Origin: Microlunatus panaciterrae
Lineage (GTDB): Bacteria > Actinomycetota > Actinomycetes > Propionibacteriales > Propionibacteriaceae
Assembly (NCBI RefSeq): GCF_016907535.1
Contig: NZ_JAFBCF010000001.1
Location: 1,116,001-1,180,000, forward strand
DNA: 64,000 nucleotides
Direction: 5' to 3'
In this document: in pieces, positions 28,173 through 44,622 of the stretch
How the letters are laid out: the number at the start of each line of letters is the position of its first letter
Position numbering within the stretch: position 1 is the first letter of the stretch
Translations under genes and position numbers: made by a program
The notes under the pieces: model-generated
Databases searched by the model: none
What the model was told of the DNA's origin: nothing
What the model saw: the letters and a program-made list of their open reading frames with translations, nothing else

Positions 28173-29522
28173 ATGGGTCGTTCAGTCGTGATCGGTGCCA
28201 GCCTCAGCGGTCTCTTCACGGCGGTCGCGCTGCAGCAGCTCGACGGCGAGACATTGATCATCGAGCGGGACCTGCTCTCCGCTGCGTCGGCGCTCCCCAG
28301 GTCCGGTGTTCCCCAGGGCCGACATCCGCACGTCTTCCTCTACCGGGGCCTGCTCGCTGCAGAACAGCTGCTGCCGGGCCTGGGCGATGATCTGATCGCG
28401 GCTGGCGCCATTCCGTTCAACACCGGTGACCTGCCCTGGCTGAGTGAGGACGGCTGGTTGCCGACCGGTCGGCCAGGCTTCGAAGTGCTCTCTGCTACCC
28501 GACCGCTGTTCGAGGAGGTCGTTCGACACAGAGTGCTGACGCTGCCCGGCGTACAGCTGAGGGAGGGGGCCCGGGTGTCGGAGCTGCGCCGGGACGATGG
28601 TCGGTGGGACGTCGATCTGGCCGACGGGGGCAGTGTCCCTGCCGACCTCGTCGTCGACGCCTCCGGACGGTCGTCTCGGCTGTCGGTGTGGCTGACCCGG
28701 CTCGGCGTCACCGTACCCGAACCGACCGAGATCGATGCCGGCGTCGGGTACGCAACCAGGATGTACCAACCGGACCGAGAGCCCGACGACTGCCCCGGGC
28801 TGGTGCTCGCCTCGAACCCGACGACCCTGGCCGGCGGGATGGCGCTGCGTGTCGAGCAGGGCCGGTGGCTGATCTGCGCGCTGGGCTTCGGCACTCGGCG
28901 CCCGCCCCGGGACGAGTCCGAGTTCCATGACTTCTTGGCGACCCTGCCCGATCCGGTGCTTGCGGACCTGGCTGCTCGGTGGCGAGCCCTCGGCGACGTC
29001 CAGCTGCATCGCCAGACCGGGAACGTGCGCCGCCGGTTCGAGCGTTGCCGCGACTGGCCGGCCAGGCTGCTCGCGGTCGGTGACGCCCTCTGCGCCTTCG
29101 ACCCGATCTACGGTCAGGGCATCACCGTCGGGGCCTGCCAGGCACTGCTGCTCCGGGATGCGTTCACGGCCGGCTTCACCCCGGCAGCCAGCCGCAGGCT
29201 GCAACGACGGATGGCCGGTCCCGTACGGACACCGTGGGACATCGCCACGTCGGAGGACCTGCGATTCCCGACCAGCCGAGGGCACCAGACCGCAGTGCAG
29301 TCACTGCTCGGCAGCTGGGCACGGGAGGTGGGACGCCTGGCGGTCCACGGGGACCGACGCGCGGCGGACGTCCTGGGGCGGGTCTATCACCTGGTGTCGA
29401 CACCGCTGCTGCTGGCTCACCCGGCGCTGGTCGTTGCGGTGGCACGCAGCCGGCTGTTCGGCCCAGGCACCCCCGCCGCTCGGCCGGCGGTGCTGGACAG
29501 CCTGGTCGGCTATCCCCCCTGA
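28173..29522 (+). CDS. FAD-dependent monooxygenase/oxidoreductase
   Basis: A 449-residue flavoprotein with an N-terminal Rossmann motif VVIGASLSGLFTAVALQQL, where a Ser replaces the middle glycine of GxGxxG. VVDASGRSSRLSVWL is the second FAD/NAD-contact motif and VGDALCAFDPIYGQGITVG the flavin-ribityl GD motif. SGVPQGRHPHVFLYRGL near residue 40 is typical of an actinobacterial subgroup related to squalene/geranylgeranyl-type oxidases. The ATG at 28173 has AGGAGGG upstream. It converges on the ferredoxin gene with only 10 bases between. That ferredoxin may supply electrons, but family members normally use NAD(P)H directly. Confidence 0.8.
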   Translation: MGRSVVIGASLSGLFTAVALQQLDGETLIIERDLLSAASALPRSGVPQGRHPHVFLYRGLLAAEQLLPGLGDDLIAAGAIPFNTGDLPWLSEDGWLPTGRPGFEVLSATRPLFEEVVRHRVLTLPGVQLREGARVSELRRDDGRWDVDLADGGSVPADLVVDASGRSSRLSVWLTRLGVTVPEPTEIDAGVGYATRMYQPDREPDDCPGLVLASNPTTLAGGMALRVEQGRWLICALGFGTRRPPRDESEFHDFLATLPDPVLADLAARWRALGDVQLHRQTGNVRRRFERCRDWPARLLAVGDALCAFDPIYGQGITVGACQALLLRDAFTAGFTPAASRRLQRRMAGPVRTPWDIATSEDLRFPTSRGHQTAVQSLLGSWAREVGRLAVHGDRRAADVLGRVYHLVSTPLLLAHPALVVAVARSRLFGPGTPAARPAVLDSLVGYPP

Positions 29523-38507: not shown

Positions 38508-39053
38508 TCAGGGGCCACCGCTGAGATGAGCGAGGACCAGGCCGACGGGGACACTGAGGAGGACCACCACCAGCAACAACCGGTAGGCCCAGCCGGCGGA
38601 CCGGGAGACCACGTCGCCCACGGAAGGCCGGGCCTTGGGGCGGACGGCGTGGAGGGCGATACCCAGCGCGATCACGAGCAGCACACCGCCGCCATCGACG
38701 ATGCCAGGGATGGCAGCAAGAGATCCCGCGATGACGGCCGCATTGCCCAATACCCAGCACGCCAGCTGCGTCCGGGCCACGACCGCGGACACCGGCCGGC
38801 CGACTCTCGTCTGCATTGCGCCGATCGCACATCCCGTCACACCGCACACCAGGACGAGATAAGCCGCCAGCCAGCTGCCCTTGTGGAGCACCAACGGTCC
38901 GGTGGCGGCGGCAACCGCGCCACCGAGGACCACGCAGCAGGCACCCAGTACGGCGTGGGCGACGGCGATCCGTTCCGTCACTGGGCGGACCGCGCCACCG
39001 GACCTGAGTGGGAGACCCTGGGTACGTCCTTTCGGTACCGAGAACCAGCTCAT
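38508..39053 (-). CDS. Multi-pass membrane protein of unknown function
   Basis: A 181-residue protein with about five hydrophobic helices (AVAHAVLGACCVVLGGAVAAA, WLAAYLVLVCGVTGCAIGA, CWVLGNAAVIAGSLAAI, GVLLVIALGIALHAV, YRLLLVVVLLSVPVGLVLA). I do not recognise the family. Its ATG shares a base with the stop of the HTH regulator gene (TGATG), so the two are coupled. Context suggests a role with the DUF2249-cupin protein in nitrogen-oxide or redox response, as inference only. Confidence 0.65.
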   Translation of the reverse strand: MSWFSVPKGRTQGLPLRSGGAVRPVTERIAVAHAVLGACCVVLGGAVAAATGPLVLHKGSWLAAYLVLVCGVTGCAIGAMQTRVGRPVSAVVARTQLACWVLGNAAVIAGSLAAIPGIVDGGGVLLVIALGIALHAVRPKARPSVGDVVSRSAGWAYRLLLVVVLLSVPVGLVLAHLSGGP

Positions 39054-39748
39054 CAGCGCGACTTCCCGAGGCTGATCATGGTGCTACTCCTGTCGGGTGT
39101 GAGGTGGGCCAGGCAGAGGTCGGGTTCGACAAAAGGGTCCAGCCGGTCGACCGTGACCGGAGCCCTCCACGCCTCCAGCGCGCCCTGCATCAGACCGAGG
39201 TGGACCGGGCAGACGACCTGGGGCGTGGTCGCGGCGAGCTCCAGGAACGGACAGTGCCGCAGGCCGATCTGTGATCGGCCGTCGGTATCGCGTTGTTCTG
39301 GGGCGAAGCCCAGCTCATCGAGCATCCCCAGCAGTCGAGCGGCTGCCTCGCTTGTGCTCGGATCGCTACCGTTTTCGGCCTGACTTCCCAGCCGACGCCC
39401 CCAGGCGCGACCGGCCTCGACGGCTCGGGCGCTCGGCTCCGGCTCGGCAGCCAGGCTGAGAGCCAGCACCTCGGCCAGCATTCGGAAGTGCCGGGGTCCC
39501 GTGGGATCCATCCCCTGCCTTGCCCGGAACACCTGCGGCGGACGTCCAGTTGCCCGGTGGTCCCGCTCCGCCCGCTCTACCTGACCGCTCTCCACGAGCT
39601 TGTCGAGATGAAACCGCGCCGTGTTCGGGTGCATCCCGAGCCGGTCGGCTATGTCGGTGATGGTCAGTGGACCCTCGGCCTGTCGGAGTACCTGCAATAC
39701 GTGACCGCGTGTACTCGCCGGGTCGGGCCGGTTCGGGGGTTCAGACAT
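39053..39748 (-). CDS. HTH regulator with C-terminal cysteines (SufR/COG2345-like)
   Basis: A 231-residue winged-helix regulator. The DNA-binding part is GPLTITDIADRLGMHPNTARFHLDKLVESGQVER (about residues 27-60). The C-terminal half has three cysteines, RHCPFLEL, VVCPVHLG and DLCLAHL, spaced CX13C and CX31C, which could ligate an iron-sulfur cluster as in SufR-like proteins. The ATG at 39748 is preferred to starts 5 and 23 residues upstream. It is divergent from the DUF2249-cupin gene, with a 12-bp-arm palindrome between. Confidence 0.82.
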   Translation of the reverse strand: MSEPPNRPDPASTRGHVLQVLRQAEGPLTITDIADRLGMHPNTARFHLDKLVESGQVERAERDHRATGRPPQVFRARQGMDPTGPRHFRMLAEVLALSLAAEPEPSARAVEAGRAWGRRLGSQAENGSDPSTSEAAARLLGMLDELGFAPEQRDTDGRSQIGLRHCPFLELAATTPQVVCPVHLGLMQGALEAWRAPVTVDRLDPFVEPDLCLAHLTPDRSSTMISLGKSR

Positions 39749-39836
39749 GGCCTTCAGCGCCATTCCCGCAGCGTCGCGATGAGGCGAGGCCGGCAGATCG
39801 CCGGAGCGCGTACGCACTGGTGGAGGCCATACCCTA

Positions 39837-39883: not shown

Positions 39884-40513
39884 ATGGTCGACCAGCACGC
39901 AACGGCGCCGGAGCTCGACGTGCGCCCACTGCGCAAACCCGAGAAGCACCCGACGATCTTCGCTACCTACCGAGACCTTCCCGTCGGCGGTTCGTTCGTG
40001 CTGGTCAACGACCACGATCCCCGGCATCTGCGGGACGAGTTCGAGGCCGACCATGCCGGCAGCTACGGATGGGAATACCTCAACACCGAGCCCCGTGACT
40101 GGCGGATCCGCATCACCAAGCGCACCACCGCCCCGCTTCCCCGAGTCCTGGTCAACACCGCGGACCTGACCGCGGCTGAGGACCGGCCGGATGCGTCGGG
40201 TGCGGTCTGGAAGCTCCAGGCGCGCGAGCGGGACCTGGACTCCAACATCATTGCCCTGCCACCCGGTGAGGGCATAGCCGAGCACGTCGGACCCGACCTC
40301 GACGTCCTCATCCACATCCTGGCCGGCTCCGGACAGCTCATCACCGAGGTCGGCCCGATCGACTTGGCCCCAGGCATGCTGCTCTGGCTGCCCCGTCGCT
40401 CCCGACGCCAGTTCGCCGCCGGAGCCGACGGCCTGCGCTACCTCACCGTGCACCAACGCCGACAGTCGCTGGTCCTCGGTACCAGCCGACTCGGGACGGG
40501 CGAGGCCCCATAA
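39884..40513 (+). CDS. DUF2249 domain fused to a cupin domain
   Basis: A 209-residue protein. Residues 10-85 are DUF2249: LDVRPLRKPEKHPTIFATYRDL, FVLVNDHDPRHLRDEFEADH and WEYLNTEPRDWRIRI. Residues 110-200 form a cupin barrel (IALPPGEGIAEHVG, DVLIHILAGSGQLITEVGPIDLAPGMLLWLPRRSRRQF) with one clear metal-type His in each motif. GGGAG precedes the ATG. DUF2249 proteins occur beside nitric-oxide and hemerythrin-type genes, and the divergent cysteine-bearing regulator supports a nitrosative or oxidative stress role (inference). Confidence 0.82.
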   Translation: MVDQHATAPELDVRPLRKPEKHPTIFATYRDLPVGGSFVLVNDHDPRHLRDEFEADHAGSYGWEYLNTEPRDWRIRITKRTTAPLPRVLVNTADLTAAEDRPDASGAVWKLQARERDLDSNIIALPPGEGIAEHVGPDLDVLIHILAGSGQLITEVGPIDLAPGMLLWLPRRSRRQFAAGADGLRYLTVHQRRQSLVLGTSRLGTGEAP

Positions 40514-40596: not shown

Positions 40597-40639
40597 GTGG
40601 AGCTAAGGAGATTCGAACTCCTGACCTTCTCGATGCGAA
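40597..40639. repeat. attachment-site copy: 43-bp tRNA-Ala 3' fragment
   Basis: This segment is identical over 43 bases to 43435-43477, which is the 3' part of tRNA-Ala(CGC). It has no 5' half, so it is not a gene. It marks the distal end of an element that integrated into the tRNA, restoring the intact gene at 43436-43508. Confidence 0.85.
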
Positions 40640-41034
40640 TGCCTCCTGGGCTCGTTCGCCGGCGTCCGGAGAGTGCGTATTGAGTGCATGTCAGACTCGG
40701 TGCGAAGTGGTCGGGGGTACGCCAGGGGGACGTGGCGGGAGCCGACTTGATCGGATCGGACCCGAGGTTGGCTGACGTCGGAACGTGTCGTTGCGAACGC
40801 GGGGCAAGGGCCCGGTGGTGCCGTTGCAGGCGTTACACGCAACGCAGCGGATGCCTCGGATGGCGCGCGATCGGTGCGTGGGGGTGCACAGAGGTGCACG
40901 TCCTCGTTGCCTTGTGCCCGTCTCCACATTCAGCGTAGGTAAGGGCAGCAGACGGTCTACAGGGTGGGTCGTTGACAGTCCCCTACAGCTACCACTCATG
41001 CTGTGAACAAGGGACTCAGGAGGGGGACGTGCCG

Positions 41035-41190
41035 ATGCCTCACCAATGCTGGACCGTGGAGGAGTTGCAGCGGTTCGAACGGGAGCTCGTTGCGTCCGGC
41101 AAGCCCCGAGACACCGTTAACACATACGTAGACCGAGCCGGTCGTTTCGTTGCGTGGTTTGCCGGCGAATACTCGCCGCAGTCGAGGTGA
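41035..41190 (+). CDS. Small integrase-type SAM-like domain protein or fragment
   Basis: A 51-residue product with the core-binding (SAM-like) N-terminal pattern of tyrosine recombinases: TVEELQRFERELVASGKPRDTVNTYVDRAGRFVAWFAGEY (two parts, residues 6-45). It stops before any catalytic domain. AGGAGGGGG lies upstream, and a GTG at 41029 is an alternative start. TTGACA at 40972-40977 may belong to its promoter. It is either the broken start of an integrase or one of the stand-alone small proteins of this type. Confidence 0.55.
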   Translation: MPHQCWTVEELQRFERELVASGKPRDTVNTYVDRAGRFVAWFAGEYSPQSR

Positions 41191-41536
41191 CCGCTTCGTC
41201 CCGAACCCTGGCAGGTGCGCGGGCTGCCATCGAGTTTGCGCCTGCAGCTCGTCCAGGATCGTCCGTTTTGAACGAGGTCGCGGCAGCGTCGTTTACAGTG
41301 AGTTCGACTGGCAGACCATCTGATTCGCAGGGTTCGATCGCTTCGTGCGACACCGTCCAAGGTCGTCCGTCGCACGGTCACGTCAAGATGAGAACGTCCG
41401 CCGACGGCCGGCCAGTTGGGCGGGAGTCTGGCTGCGGCGGCGGCCCAGGTTCCCGGCGACCTCCTGCTTGCAGATCGTCTCTTCCACGACCGCGGATGCG
41501 GTTGAAGCGGTGAGGTCGCTTTGAGACGATGGCCAC

Positions 41537-42973
41537 GTGGGGAGAAACGTCGTCGTGGGTGCGGGCATCGCCGGGCTCGGGGCCGCCCTGTTCCTCGCGC
41601 GCGACGGTCATCCTGTAACGGTTTGCGAGATCGATGGGCCCCCACCTCCCGGGATCGACGAGCTGTGGTCGGACTGGGCGCGGCCGAACGTCCCTCACGG
41701 ACGGCTCGGCCACGGCTTCCTGTCGGGCTTCTGCACAGAGCTACAAAGTCGGGCCCCTGACGTTCTGCAGGGCATCCTCGACGCCGGAGCGGTAGTCCAG
41801 GACCTCACCGAGCAAGCGCCGGAGGGGAAACGGGAGCCCGGGGACGAGCAGTTGATCATCGTCATGTGCCGCCGCCCCGTCCTGGAGGGCCTGCTGCGAC
41901 GAGCGGTCGAAGCCGAGCCGTCTGTCACGATCCGCTCCGGCTGCCGCCTGGCGGGCGTGGTCGCCGAGCCGGGACGACCTCCCACCGTCACCGGCGTCCG
42001 GACGTCGGAGGGGGACGTGATAGCGGCCGACGTCGTGGTCATGGCCGGAGGCCGCCGTCTCCCGCTGATGAGATGGCTCGACGCGATCGGTGCGGAGCGG
42101 CCGGCGGAAGTCTCGGAGGGGTGCGGCCAGCTCTGGTACACTCGGTACAACCGTCTGCGTCCCAGGAATGGCGAGGACGGCACCGCAACGTTGATGGCGG
42201 CGTCGGCGATCCAGGACCTTGGCTACATGTACTACGCGTTCGGGCCTGGAGACCGCGGGACGTTCTGCTACGAGCTGGGAATCCCGGTCAGAGATCGCAG
42301 CCTCCGGGCCGTGCATGACCAATCGGTGTTCATGGCGGTGATCCATCTGATGCCGGAGGCCGCTGACCTGCTCGCCGACGGACGCTCCGAACCGGTCGGT
42401 CGGATGTGCCCGATGGGCGAGGAGCACAACATAGTGCGTGCGTTCCCGCGTCAGGGCGCGCCGCTGGCCCTGGGCTTGCACGTGATCGGCGACGCGCGCA
42501 GCCGCACGAACTCGCTCTATGCGTGGGGGGTCAGCCTCGCACTTCAGCAGGCTGCAGCGCTGACCGACGCCATCCGCGAGCACCCGACCGACAACGCCGC
42601 GCAGGCTTGGGAGCTGGAGGCGGCCGTGGCCGACGAAATCGAAGGCCGGTACCTTGTGTCGATGTCAGATGACCGTGCCTGGCTGCGGGCTATGGGTGTC
42701 GATCGACCCCGGGTCACGGATCGGCGGATCCGCGTGATCGATGAGGTGCTTCGACCGGCGAGCAAGGTGGACCGCCGGGTATGGCGCGAGTTAACACGCT
42801 GGAACATGTGTCTGCGTTCGACTCGATCCTTAGCAGACGACGACCAGTTGATCCGCCACGCGGAAGCTTTACGTGCTGGCCGCCAGTCGCCGGCCAAGGC
42901 GGCGAAGGATACGCCGGATCGAGGCACCGTACTGGGCACGATCAGCCGGTCAGGGCCTGAAACGCGTGCATGA
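41537..42973 (+). CDS. FAD-dependent oxidoreductase carried by the island
   Basis: A 478-residue flavoprotein. NVVVGAGIAGLGAALFLARDGHPVTVCE is a complete FAD-binding Rossmann motif. ADVVVMAGGRRLPLMRWL is the second motif, and VIGDARSRTNSLYAWGVSLALQQAA the flavin-ribityl GD region. It belongs broadly with the monooxygenase-like protein at 28173 but is clearly a different branch. GTG start without a strong ribosome binding site. It is the only intact gene in the island, so it is the presumptive cargo. The substrate is unknown. Confidence 0.78.
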   Translation: MGRNVVVGAGIAGLGAALFLARDGHPVTVCEIDGPPPPGIDELWSDWARPNVPHGRLGHGFLSGFCTELQSRAPDVLQGILDAGAVVQDLTEQAPEGKREPGDEQLIIVMCRRPVLEGLLRRAVEAEPSVTIRSGCRLAGVVAEPGRPPTVTGVRTSEGDVIAADVVVMAGGRRLPLMRWLDAIGAERPAEVSEGCGQLWYTRYNRLRPRNGEDGTATLMAASAIQDLGYMYYAFGPGDRGTFCYELGIPVRDRSLRAVHDQSVFMAVIHLMPEAADLLADGRSEPVGRMCPMGEEHNIVRAFPRQGAPLALGLHVIGDARSRTNSLYAWGVSLALQQAAALTDAIREHPTDNAAQAWELEAAVADEIEGRYLVSMSDDRAWLRAMGVDRPRVTDRRIRVIDEVLRPASKVDRRVWRELTRWNMCLRSTRSLADDDQLIRHAEALRAGRQSPAKAAKDTPDRGTVLGTISRSGPETRA

Positions 42974-43025
42974 CGCACGTCAGGCCTGACACCGGAAGAG
43001 ATCAGCGAGGGCCACCTGGATCGCC

Positions 43026-43376
43026 TTGCTGACGCAAGAGGTTCAAGTGAGTCTCCATGACCGCGGCCAGCTCGCTGACCAGGGCTTTTCTCAGCGCTCG
43101 CCAACGAGGCCGCCCGATGATGCCCGTCTTGGTGTACCAGCGCATGCCGAGAACGAGGGTCGCCTGATTCACGATCTGCGGCATACGGCGGCGTGCTTGT
43201 GGCTGCCTAGAGGAGTCGATCCGGTGACGGTGCAGGCGTGGATGGGTCACGCCTCGATTGCCACGACGAACCTCTACCTGCATCACCTGGGAACGGCCGC
43301 TGACCAGGCCGGATTGGCGCGTCTGAACGCTCTGAGGCACACCGGGGGCACGCCAGGCAGGTTGGAATCGAAATGA
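43026..43376 (+). pseudogene. Tyrosine integrase C-terminal remnant
   Basis: Residues 48-100 carry the catalytic signature of tyrosine recombinases: HDLRHTAA (Arg codon 43179-43181, His 43182-43184), MGHAS (His 43248-43250) and TTNLYLHHL (Tyr 43275-43277). The first catalytic Arg and the N-terminal two thirds are missing, and the sequence upstream of about 43140 does not continue the domain. It lies next to the tRNA-Ala attachment site. Classed as a remnant. Confidence 0.75.
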
Positions 43377-43435
43377 CGGTGGTGTCACTCACCGGGCGGA
43401 CCGTGTTTGGCCTGGTGAGAGCGAGATTTTCTGGG

Positions 43436-43508
43436 TGGAGCTAAGGAGATTCGAACTCCTGACCTTCTCGATGCGAACGAGACGCGCTACCAACTGCGCC
43501 ATAGCCCC
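43436..43508 (-). tRNA. tRNA-Ala (anticodon CGC)
   Basis: On the minus strand GGGGCTA (5') pairs with TAGCTCC (3'), allowing one G-U pair. The anticodon stem TCTCG/CGAGA encloses TTCGCAT, giving CGC for the Ala codon GCG. The T arm is CAGGAG-TTCGAAT-CTCCTT-like. Its 3' part is duplicated at 40597-40639, showing that it served as an integration target. Confidence 0.92.
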
Positions 43509-43570
43509 TCTGGATGAACCAGCAGGGAGACTTTACCATCCCCGGTTTCGTCGCTCGTGCGTAGGCCGGC

Positions 43571-43735
43571 ATCCGCGCTCTGAGCCTGTCGAAGAGCGTC
43601 CTTCGACATCCGCGCTCTGAGCCTCTCGAAGAGCGCCCTTCCACATCCGCGCTCTGAGCCTGTCGAAGAGCGTCCTTCGACAAGTGGCCCTTCGACAGGC
43701 TCAGGGCGCGGTCCAGGCTCAGGGAGCGGAGGGCG
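43571..43735. repeat. 37-bp tandem copies of the TGAGCCTGTCGAAG element
   Basis: Three tandem 37-bp units start at 43571, 43608 and 43645 (core GCGCTCTGAGCCTGTCGAAGAGCG; the middle copy has point changes). An inverted copy (GCCCTTCGACAGGCTCAGGGC) follows at about 43687-43707, then a partial CAGGCTCAGGGAGCGG. It is the same family as the arrays at 26.5 and 62.1 kb but with a different period. It fills the space between the tRNA and the sepX-like gene. Confidence 0.88.
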
Positions 43736-43749
43736 GGCTCAGGACACGG

Positions 43750-44532
43750 TCAGGAGGCTCTGCGGTCGCCTTCGGCGTTCTCATCTTCGGCAACGGGATT
43801 GACCGGTGCGACGCGCTCGGGGGCATCCGCTGTCACCGGGACGCTCTGGCGGCCGGCGGAGGTGACCTCCGGTCCGGACAGGTCGATGGTACGGACGGTA
43901 CGCGGGGCGAGCGGCTTCGAGACGTACGTCGGCAGCGTGATCGGCACCGGATCCCACAGGGCACCGGTCCGTTCGGGCTGCTTCGGCTTGTGGTGAAGTT
44001 TCTTCTCCACCTTGAGATCCGCTTTGGCCAGATCGTCGCGGCTGAGGAACACCGTCGACTCGTCACTACCACGGCAGATCTCGGCATAGCGGGCATCCAA
44101 CCGACGCCGCATGCCGTTGACACTGATCCGAGCCACCACAACGAACGCCAGCAGCAGTCCGCCCGGAATGAGCGACGACCACCACGGCCCCAGGCCGGCT
44201 GTCCAGACCGCGACCGCCACGGTCACCGCCATCATCAGGGCGACCAGCACGCGACGACGTCGCTTGGCGGCCACCCGTTCGAGCCGGCGGAGGTCCTCGA
44301 TCGCGGCCCGACGAGTCAACGGGGTGGAGACTTCGGCGGCCGGGATCTCGGCCAGGTCCTGGTCGAGTAGCGGCGCCGTCCCCCGTTTGATGATCCGCAT
44401 CGAGTCGGAGAAGCGGTTCGTCGGATCGTCCTCTTCCGCCGGTGCTGCGTCACGTCGCTTGGCATAGAGCGGAACGAGGTAGGCGAGCCACGCGATCGCA
44501 ATCGCGGCATAGATCAGTCCTGTCGTCCCCAC
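43750..44532 (-). CDS. SepX/GlpR-like divisome membrane protein
   Basis: A 260-residue protein: an N-terminal helix (GLIYAAIAIAWLAYLVPLY), a cytoplasmic segment with RRRDAAP-type and FSDSMRIIKRG sequences, a helical hairpin near residues 95-140 (VLVALMMAVTVAVAVWTAG, LIPGGLLLAFVVVARISV) and a polar tail. This layout and the position next to rimJ match the actinobacterial SepX/GlpR group of cell-division proteins. The GTG at 44532 is chosen over the ORF start at 44565. Assignment rests on layout and synteny. Confidence 0.65.
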   Translation of the reverse strand: MGTTGLIYAAIAIAWLAYLVPLYAKRRDAAPAEEDDPTNRFSDSMRIIKRGTAPLLDQDLAEIPAAEVSTPLTRRAAIEDLRRLERVAAKRRRRVLVALMMAVTVAVAVWTAGLGPWWSSLIPGGLLLAFVVVARISVNGMRRRLDARYAEICRGSDESTVFLSRDDLAKADLKVEKKLHHKPKQPERTGALWDPVPITLPTYVSKPLAPRTVRTIDLSGPEVTSAGRQSVPVTADAPERVAPVNPVAEDENAEGDRRAS

Positions 44533-44622
44533 ACGGAGACCGTAAGCGGGCCGACGCAATCCCACCGTGACCTGAGGCGGTGTGTCGCAAGAAACAGCAG
44601 TGACGGGTGGGGATCGGCCTCT

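Follow-up and report, generated by a model that had tools for sequence, protein, structure and literature searches.

AICEs of the pSAM2 type (actinomycete integrative and conjugative elements) and tRNA-integrated genomic islands are among the described systems closest to the locus that we report here. In the part of PMC3218068 that defines AICEs, the criterion is the combination of Int, Tra and Rep. The tRNA-integrated islands catalogued by Islander have ends that are marked, in the portion of PMC4383910 that describes them, by a regenerated target and a displaced fragment. Among the relatives of our locus, the two elements that we checked gene by gene look, from their gene content, like pSAM2-type AICEs. 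The element in genome G144 spans 8.5 kb and comprises a tRNA-Ala, an integrase gene (int), HTH_17, RepSA (3.9e-88), FtsK_SpoIIIE, HTH, NUDIX and a 54-bp distal repeat, and the 13.7-kb element in G007 comprises a tRNA-Thr, int, RepSA (5.9e-148), FtsK_SpoIIIE and a 43-bp repeat.

We analysed a window of 64,000 nucleotides (G000:C1:1116001-1180000) from a Microlunatus panaciterrae genome of 4.07 Mb in a single contig. Beside a tRNA-Ala(CGC) gene in this window is a 2.8-kb segment bounded by a perfect repeat. With a probability of about 0.88, we believe that the segment reflects the integration of a tyrosine-integrase element into tRNA-Ala(CGC), followed by internal deletion of the element's backbone.

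The tRNA-Ala(CGC) gene and its repeat

The first-pass annotation of this DNA claimed a perfect duplication of 43 bp, and positions 40597-40639 and 43435-43477 are indeed identical at 43 of 43 positions, as direct repeats 2838 bp apart. As had been proposed, the copy at 43435..43477 belongs to an intact tRNA-Ala(CGC) gene and forms its 3' part; the gene lies on the minus strand at 43434..43508 according to ARAGORN and at 43436-43508 according to Rfam (RF00005, 69 bits). This tRNA-side copy of the att core starts at tRNA nt 32, within the anticodon loop, and ends a little beyond the acceptor stem, with the 3' half of the target gene doubling as the attachment site. The displaced distal copy of the core, at 40597..40639, is recognized by its identity to the repeat; as had been described, it has no 5' tRNA half, and neither ARAGORN nor Rfam calls a tRNA at 40597.

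When a 32-base core of the repeat was searched for with up to 3 mismatches, the only sites in the window were the 40597 and 43435 copies, and 100 shuffles gave 0 matches, so the repeat is beyond chance. Joining 40639 to 43478 in silico produces a single intact tRNA-Ala(CGC), as expected for attB. The remnant sits at a tRNA 3' end, as is asked of an AICE, and it has the direct repeats asked of a tRNA-integrated genomic island, one in the regenerated tRNA and one in a displaced 3' fragment. The 0 differences in 43 positions between the att cores bound their divergence only to roughly 7% (rule of three), so that they do not fix the age of the remnant.

In its 3' half, the window's tRNA-Ala(CGC) gene has U38, A52 and U62, with both window copies in agreement. 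All 16 of the congener tRNA-Ala(CGC) genes compared have A38, G52 and C62, and the sole gene identical to that of the window is in G021, from another genus (L037:5710-5785). We considered an imported tRNA 3' half, which is not demonstrated by these bases since both window copies carry them; given this agreement, either the host and the element already had the same sequence in common or the copies were homogenised. A third tRNA-Ala 3' fragment, an orphan, is found at G000:C1:1832456-1832499 (L053 from 1490), with no tRNA and no integrase of the remnant's family within the 44 kb examined. This fragment has G52 and U62. It is a possible intermediate in a change from the G52-C62 of the congeners to the A52-U62 of the window, and independent mutation is also possible.

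The integrase family and the insertion site

Adjacent to the tRNA, at 43158..43376 on the plus strand, is the 3' remnant of a tyrosine integrase gene (PF00589, E 1.1e-8; phrog_1, 2.8e-12), which encodes the HDLRHT and GHAS...Y boxes and the C-terminus and covers positions 130-168 of the 172 in the PF00589 model. The remnant ends 57 nt from the tRNA-Ala(CGC) gene and is convergent with it. Of the intact integrase expected in a genomic island, and as the Int of an AICE, only the last ~72 of ~361 residues are present, at the usual place beside the tRNA. These residues are 84% identical to the G144 integrase over 68 residues, with 82% nucleotide identity over 194 bp. Full-length integrases related to the remnant, with at most 84% identity in the portion that is left here, are found in other genera, convergent with a neighboring tRNA-Ala(CGC) or tRNA-Thr(CGT). 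At E<=1e-10, the integrase end was matched in 16 of 198 genomes of the family, its own included, with no second copy in the window's genome. There was no match in 50,697 phage records, and the 4 plasmid matches were at 41-53%.

The 17 matched loci in family genomes (again including that of the window) contain tRNA-Ala(CGC) in 9 cases, tRNA-Thr(CGT) in 2, tRNA-Pro(CGG) in 1 and no tRNA in 5. A scan of GTDB for the integrase remnant returned 70 loci, and we examined 54 of them over up to 10 kb upstream. Nearly all (49/54) had a convergent tRNA within 700 bp, namely tRNA-Ala(CGC) in 30, tRNA-Thr(CGT) in 17 and tRNA-Thr(TGT) in 2, and in the other 5 none was found. These 54 loci span seventeen genus names, with Brooklawnia and Streptomyces represented by MAGs only. 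The two sets overlap (L149 is G201 and L153 is G152, for example) and there are a few near-duplicates among the 54 loci, so the counts are not counts of independent events. Members of the integrase family that adjoin a different tRNA, or no tRNA at all, are a counterpoint to our model. RepSA was detected in 21/54 loci and Tra in 11/54 (two query proteins each, anywhere in the DNA examined), so not every relative of the integrase is demonstrated to belong to an AICE.

A distal repeat was found in 14/54 loci, a count that misses elements longer than the DNA examined. In 9 of these the repeat is 43-45 bp and 100% identical, and in 2 it is weak (17 bp in L141; 31 bp at 93.5% in L149); the distal repeats of integrase relatives, where found, are mostly 43-54 bp. 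We compared the position at which the repeat begins in G144, G040, G007, G201, G015 and the window. The start is at tRNA nt 29-32 in the first four, as it is in the window (nt 32), and the weak, diverged repeat of G015 starts later in the tRNA. The integrase family that uses tRNA-Ala(CGC) and tRNA-Thr(CGT) is thus linked to a repeat whose start is close to the anticodon loop, a rule that could help to detect remnants so small that methods dependent on an intact integrase would miss them. The earlier reading of the repeats as the attL/attR footprint of a tyrosine integrase has held up, given that the integrase remnant adjoins the tRNA and that the elements of its relatives are found at this same tRNA gene, with repeats of a similar kind. 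One could instead suppose that part of the tRNA gene was duplicated independently of any element and that the integrase fragment is nearby only by chance, and the orphan at G000:C1:1832456-1832499 indicates that such fragments can occur alone. However, the position and orientation of the integrase and the repeat itself match the elements of the family, and we consider coincidence extremely improbable.

The chromosomal neighbor of the tRNA, the SepX/GlpR divisome gene (43750..44565, minus strand; NF050099, 1.1e-49), is conserved: of the 16 congeners fetched, 15 have the two genes together on one locus. In one congener (G001, locus L013), the corresponding tRNA next to sepX has an integrase end at a distance of about 40 nt, and this was the only one of 22 loci around the tRNA or sepX in which the integrase profile found a member of the family. 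Between the tRNA and sepX, at 43570-43739, a CTTCGACAGGCTCAG-type repeat occurs in tandem and in inverted copies, with similar copies elsewhere in the genome and in congeners, among the matches listed.

On the left side, outside the element, the first gene is a DUF2249/cupin gene (39884..40513, plus strand; PF10006, 1.4e-25) and the second is an HTH regulator (39053..39817, minus strand; assigned from Pfam and comparison). G005 and G006 also have this HTH-cupin pair, and the 6.7 and 12 kb examined in them contain no tRNA. None of six left-flank proteins was found in 20 fetched loci around the tRNA or sepX, which reach up to ~10 kb past the tRNA, and a search for the left-flank DNA in 21 genomes (its own included, and 12 of congeners) found no relative that has it beside the tRNA. 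No empty-site allele for the remnant was found in any relative searched. In the 12 congeners with both genes on one contig, the distance from the tRNA to the next conserved gene tested (PMT) ranges from 3.3 kb (G014) to 59 kb (G010), and in the window it is 26.6 kb (interval 16875-43434). The PMT-tRNA-Ala interval is an insertion hotspot that is hypervariable in the genus.

Searches around related elements gave a similar picture. The distal flank of the G144 element was found in G023, where it is 2.4 kb past tRNA-Ala(GGC) and not at the CGC gene, so this case is not an empty site and none was found for G144. For the G040 element, the search gave nothing beside the tRNA, and no empty site. Terrabacter tumescens (L121) shares the sequence just past the distal repeat with Phycicoccus sp. 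HDW14 (L151), at 76% over 170 bp, which means that the distal copy there adjoins a conserved flank and lends indirect support to the integration model.

Contents of the segment

The interior of the remnant (40640..43434) is bounded by the repeats, and its joined flanks restore the tRNA-Ala. It holds three coding pieces, all on the plus strand: a 53-aa ORF, a flavoprotein gene and the integrase 3' end. The first-pass annotation considered the flavoprotein to be the only intact gene here. It is uninterrupted, but the integrase 3' end (43158-43376) and the 53-aa SAM-like ORF (41029-41190) are recognizable as well. The small size (~2.9 kb) and decay proposed for the segment agree with what we find, a length of 2.8 kb with ~80% of int missing and rep, tra and excisionase undetected. 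Sequence comparison against the family loci gave no trace of rep, tra or excisionase in the interior. For Rep, there was no interior match at E<=0.01 to the RepSA-carrying loci, with other Rep types covered by Pfam on the ORFs alone, and no FtsK/SpoIIIE-type Tra of the kind that AICEs carry was found inside the remnant. There were no phage structural genes among the three ORFs compared with PHROGs, in which the integrase remnant matches integrases, the flavoprotein has one weak match (ribonucleotide reductase, E 0.018) and the small ORF has none.

The 53-aa ORF (41029..41190, plus strand) has no match in Pfam, PHROGs or NCBIfam at E<=0.1. Searches for relatives of it, which have 42-54% identity, identified them in 2 other genomes among the 198 of the family and in 5 others among the 394 of the class; they are short proteins, in some cases HTH-like in their N-terminal part, and two are beside RepSA. 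In these two (L103 and L105), the relative is the C-terminal part of a ~119-aa protein adjoining the RepSA gene (8.9e-78 and 3.5e-77). The L103 protein, which was the one tested for this, has weak HTH matches, and no Pfam match above the cut-off was seen for the HTH-like plus SAM-like proteins of L102 and L103, the two tested of the three in L102, L103 and L105. These small proteins are possibly AICE accessories. Having kin beside RepSA is a second hint that the remnant originated from an AICE, a hint that is weakened by the presence of such ORFs in 0/54 integrase loci at E<=1e-6. We rejected the ORF as the N-terminus of the same integrase, since its relatives are separate short proteins or HTH-like fusions; full members of the integrase family start with MSIRK, MTIRK or similar.

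The flavoprotein gene (41537..42973, plus strand) has a GTG start and encodes 478 aa with an FAD-binding Rossmann motif (PF01266, 8.1e-10; MonCI, 5.2e-10 with phmmer). The flavin epoxidase MonCI is the only PDB match at E<=0.001 and is a sequence relative of the flavoprotein over residues 4-385. The similarity is low (41.8 bits), and no polyether biosynthesis gene was recognized among the 26 window proteins scanned with Pfam. With both the FAD-binding motif and the relation to MonCI-like flavin epoxidases present, we regard the flavoprotein as distantly related to MonCI and any epoxidase activity as putative. In an alignment with 7 homologues, the C-terminal part is poorly conserved. No close relatives were found in the GTDB scan, the best match by E-value (56 other genomes) is at 39% over 357 residues, and the matches in 56 plasmid records are all below 60%. 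A distant homologue lies outside the element at 28173-29264 of the window (30%, E 3.2e-14), in an ORF (28188-29522) with no Pfam match at E<=1e-6, so the genome is not without such an enzyme besides the element's copy. That the flavoprotein gene was kept because it is useful is something that we only infer.

Decay of the element and comparison with known systems

In the favored model, an element of the tRNA-Ala(CGC)-targeting integrase family would have inserted into the 3' half of the gene. From the anatomy of the locus, the tRNA would have been made whole again by the element's attachment site, and the host's own 3' half, now displaced, would have become the distal copy. We take the element to have been, most probably, a pSAM2-like AICE or something closely related to one. 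A large internal deletion would then have removed the first ~80% of the integrase together with excisionase, rep and tra, leaving the genes of the distal end (the flavoprotein and the small SAM-like ORF), the integrase 3' end and both att cores. Reading away from the tRNA, G144 has int, HTH, rep, tra, other genes and the distal repeat, and the window has the int 3' end, the flavoprotein, the small ORF and the distal repeat. A single deletion with one end near 43158 would account for the loss. Since there is no trace of rep, tra or excisionase inside, AICE ancestry rests on the integrase kin and the small ORF. The remnant should no longer excise by itself.

Other very small elements of the family are known, including L148 (3.5 kb, integrase match to residues 60-353), L160 (3.1 kb, residues 160-357) and G040 (4.7 kb, with an integrase frame of 129 residues). 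Their existence, and the fact that both att cores in the window are intact, would suit a small non-autonomous island, a CIME-like or satellite element, that arrived already small, was moved by an integrase in trans and was never a full AICE in this genome. On the other hand, the integrase 3' end is in its native position, which indicates that the gene was once complete, and no second copy of such a unit is known: the flavoprotein has no match at E<=1e-70 in the other 393 of the 394 class genomes, among the matches listed (four candidates scored per genome). An island that was small on arrival therefore seems unlikely to us. We are equally doubtful that the 2.8-kb unit is a functional, cis-mobilisable mini-element that, having both att cores intact, could be excised and moved by a related tRNA-Ala(CGC) integrase from another AICE. 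Its cargo would be the flavoprotein and the small SAM-like ORF, which might encode a DNA-binding accessory of recombination. Integration followed by internal deletion remains our preferred explanation, and the elements L148, L160 and L086 (3.1-4.7 kb), in which the integrase is matched in its C-terminal part only, suggest the same route of decay. The locus shows a pattern of wear in which the mobility genes are lost before the ends and one of the cargo genes.

Like pSAM2-type AICEs, the remnant has kinship of the integrase, a tRNA 3'-end target, a direct repeat and int at the tRNA end. Unlike the G144 and G007 relatives, which carry RepSA and an FtsK-type Tra, it has neither that we could find, nor an excisionase, and ~20% of int is left, so as it stands it falls outside the Int+Rep+Tra definition of an AICE. 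It shares with the tRNA islands catalogued by Islander a regenerated target and a displaced fragment that mark the ends, but it is only 2.8 kb and its integrase is broken. The remnant is a decayed member of an already known kind of element, unusually small and with one well-preserved enzyme gene.
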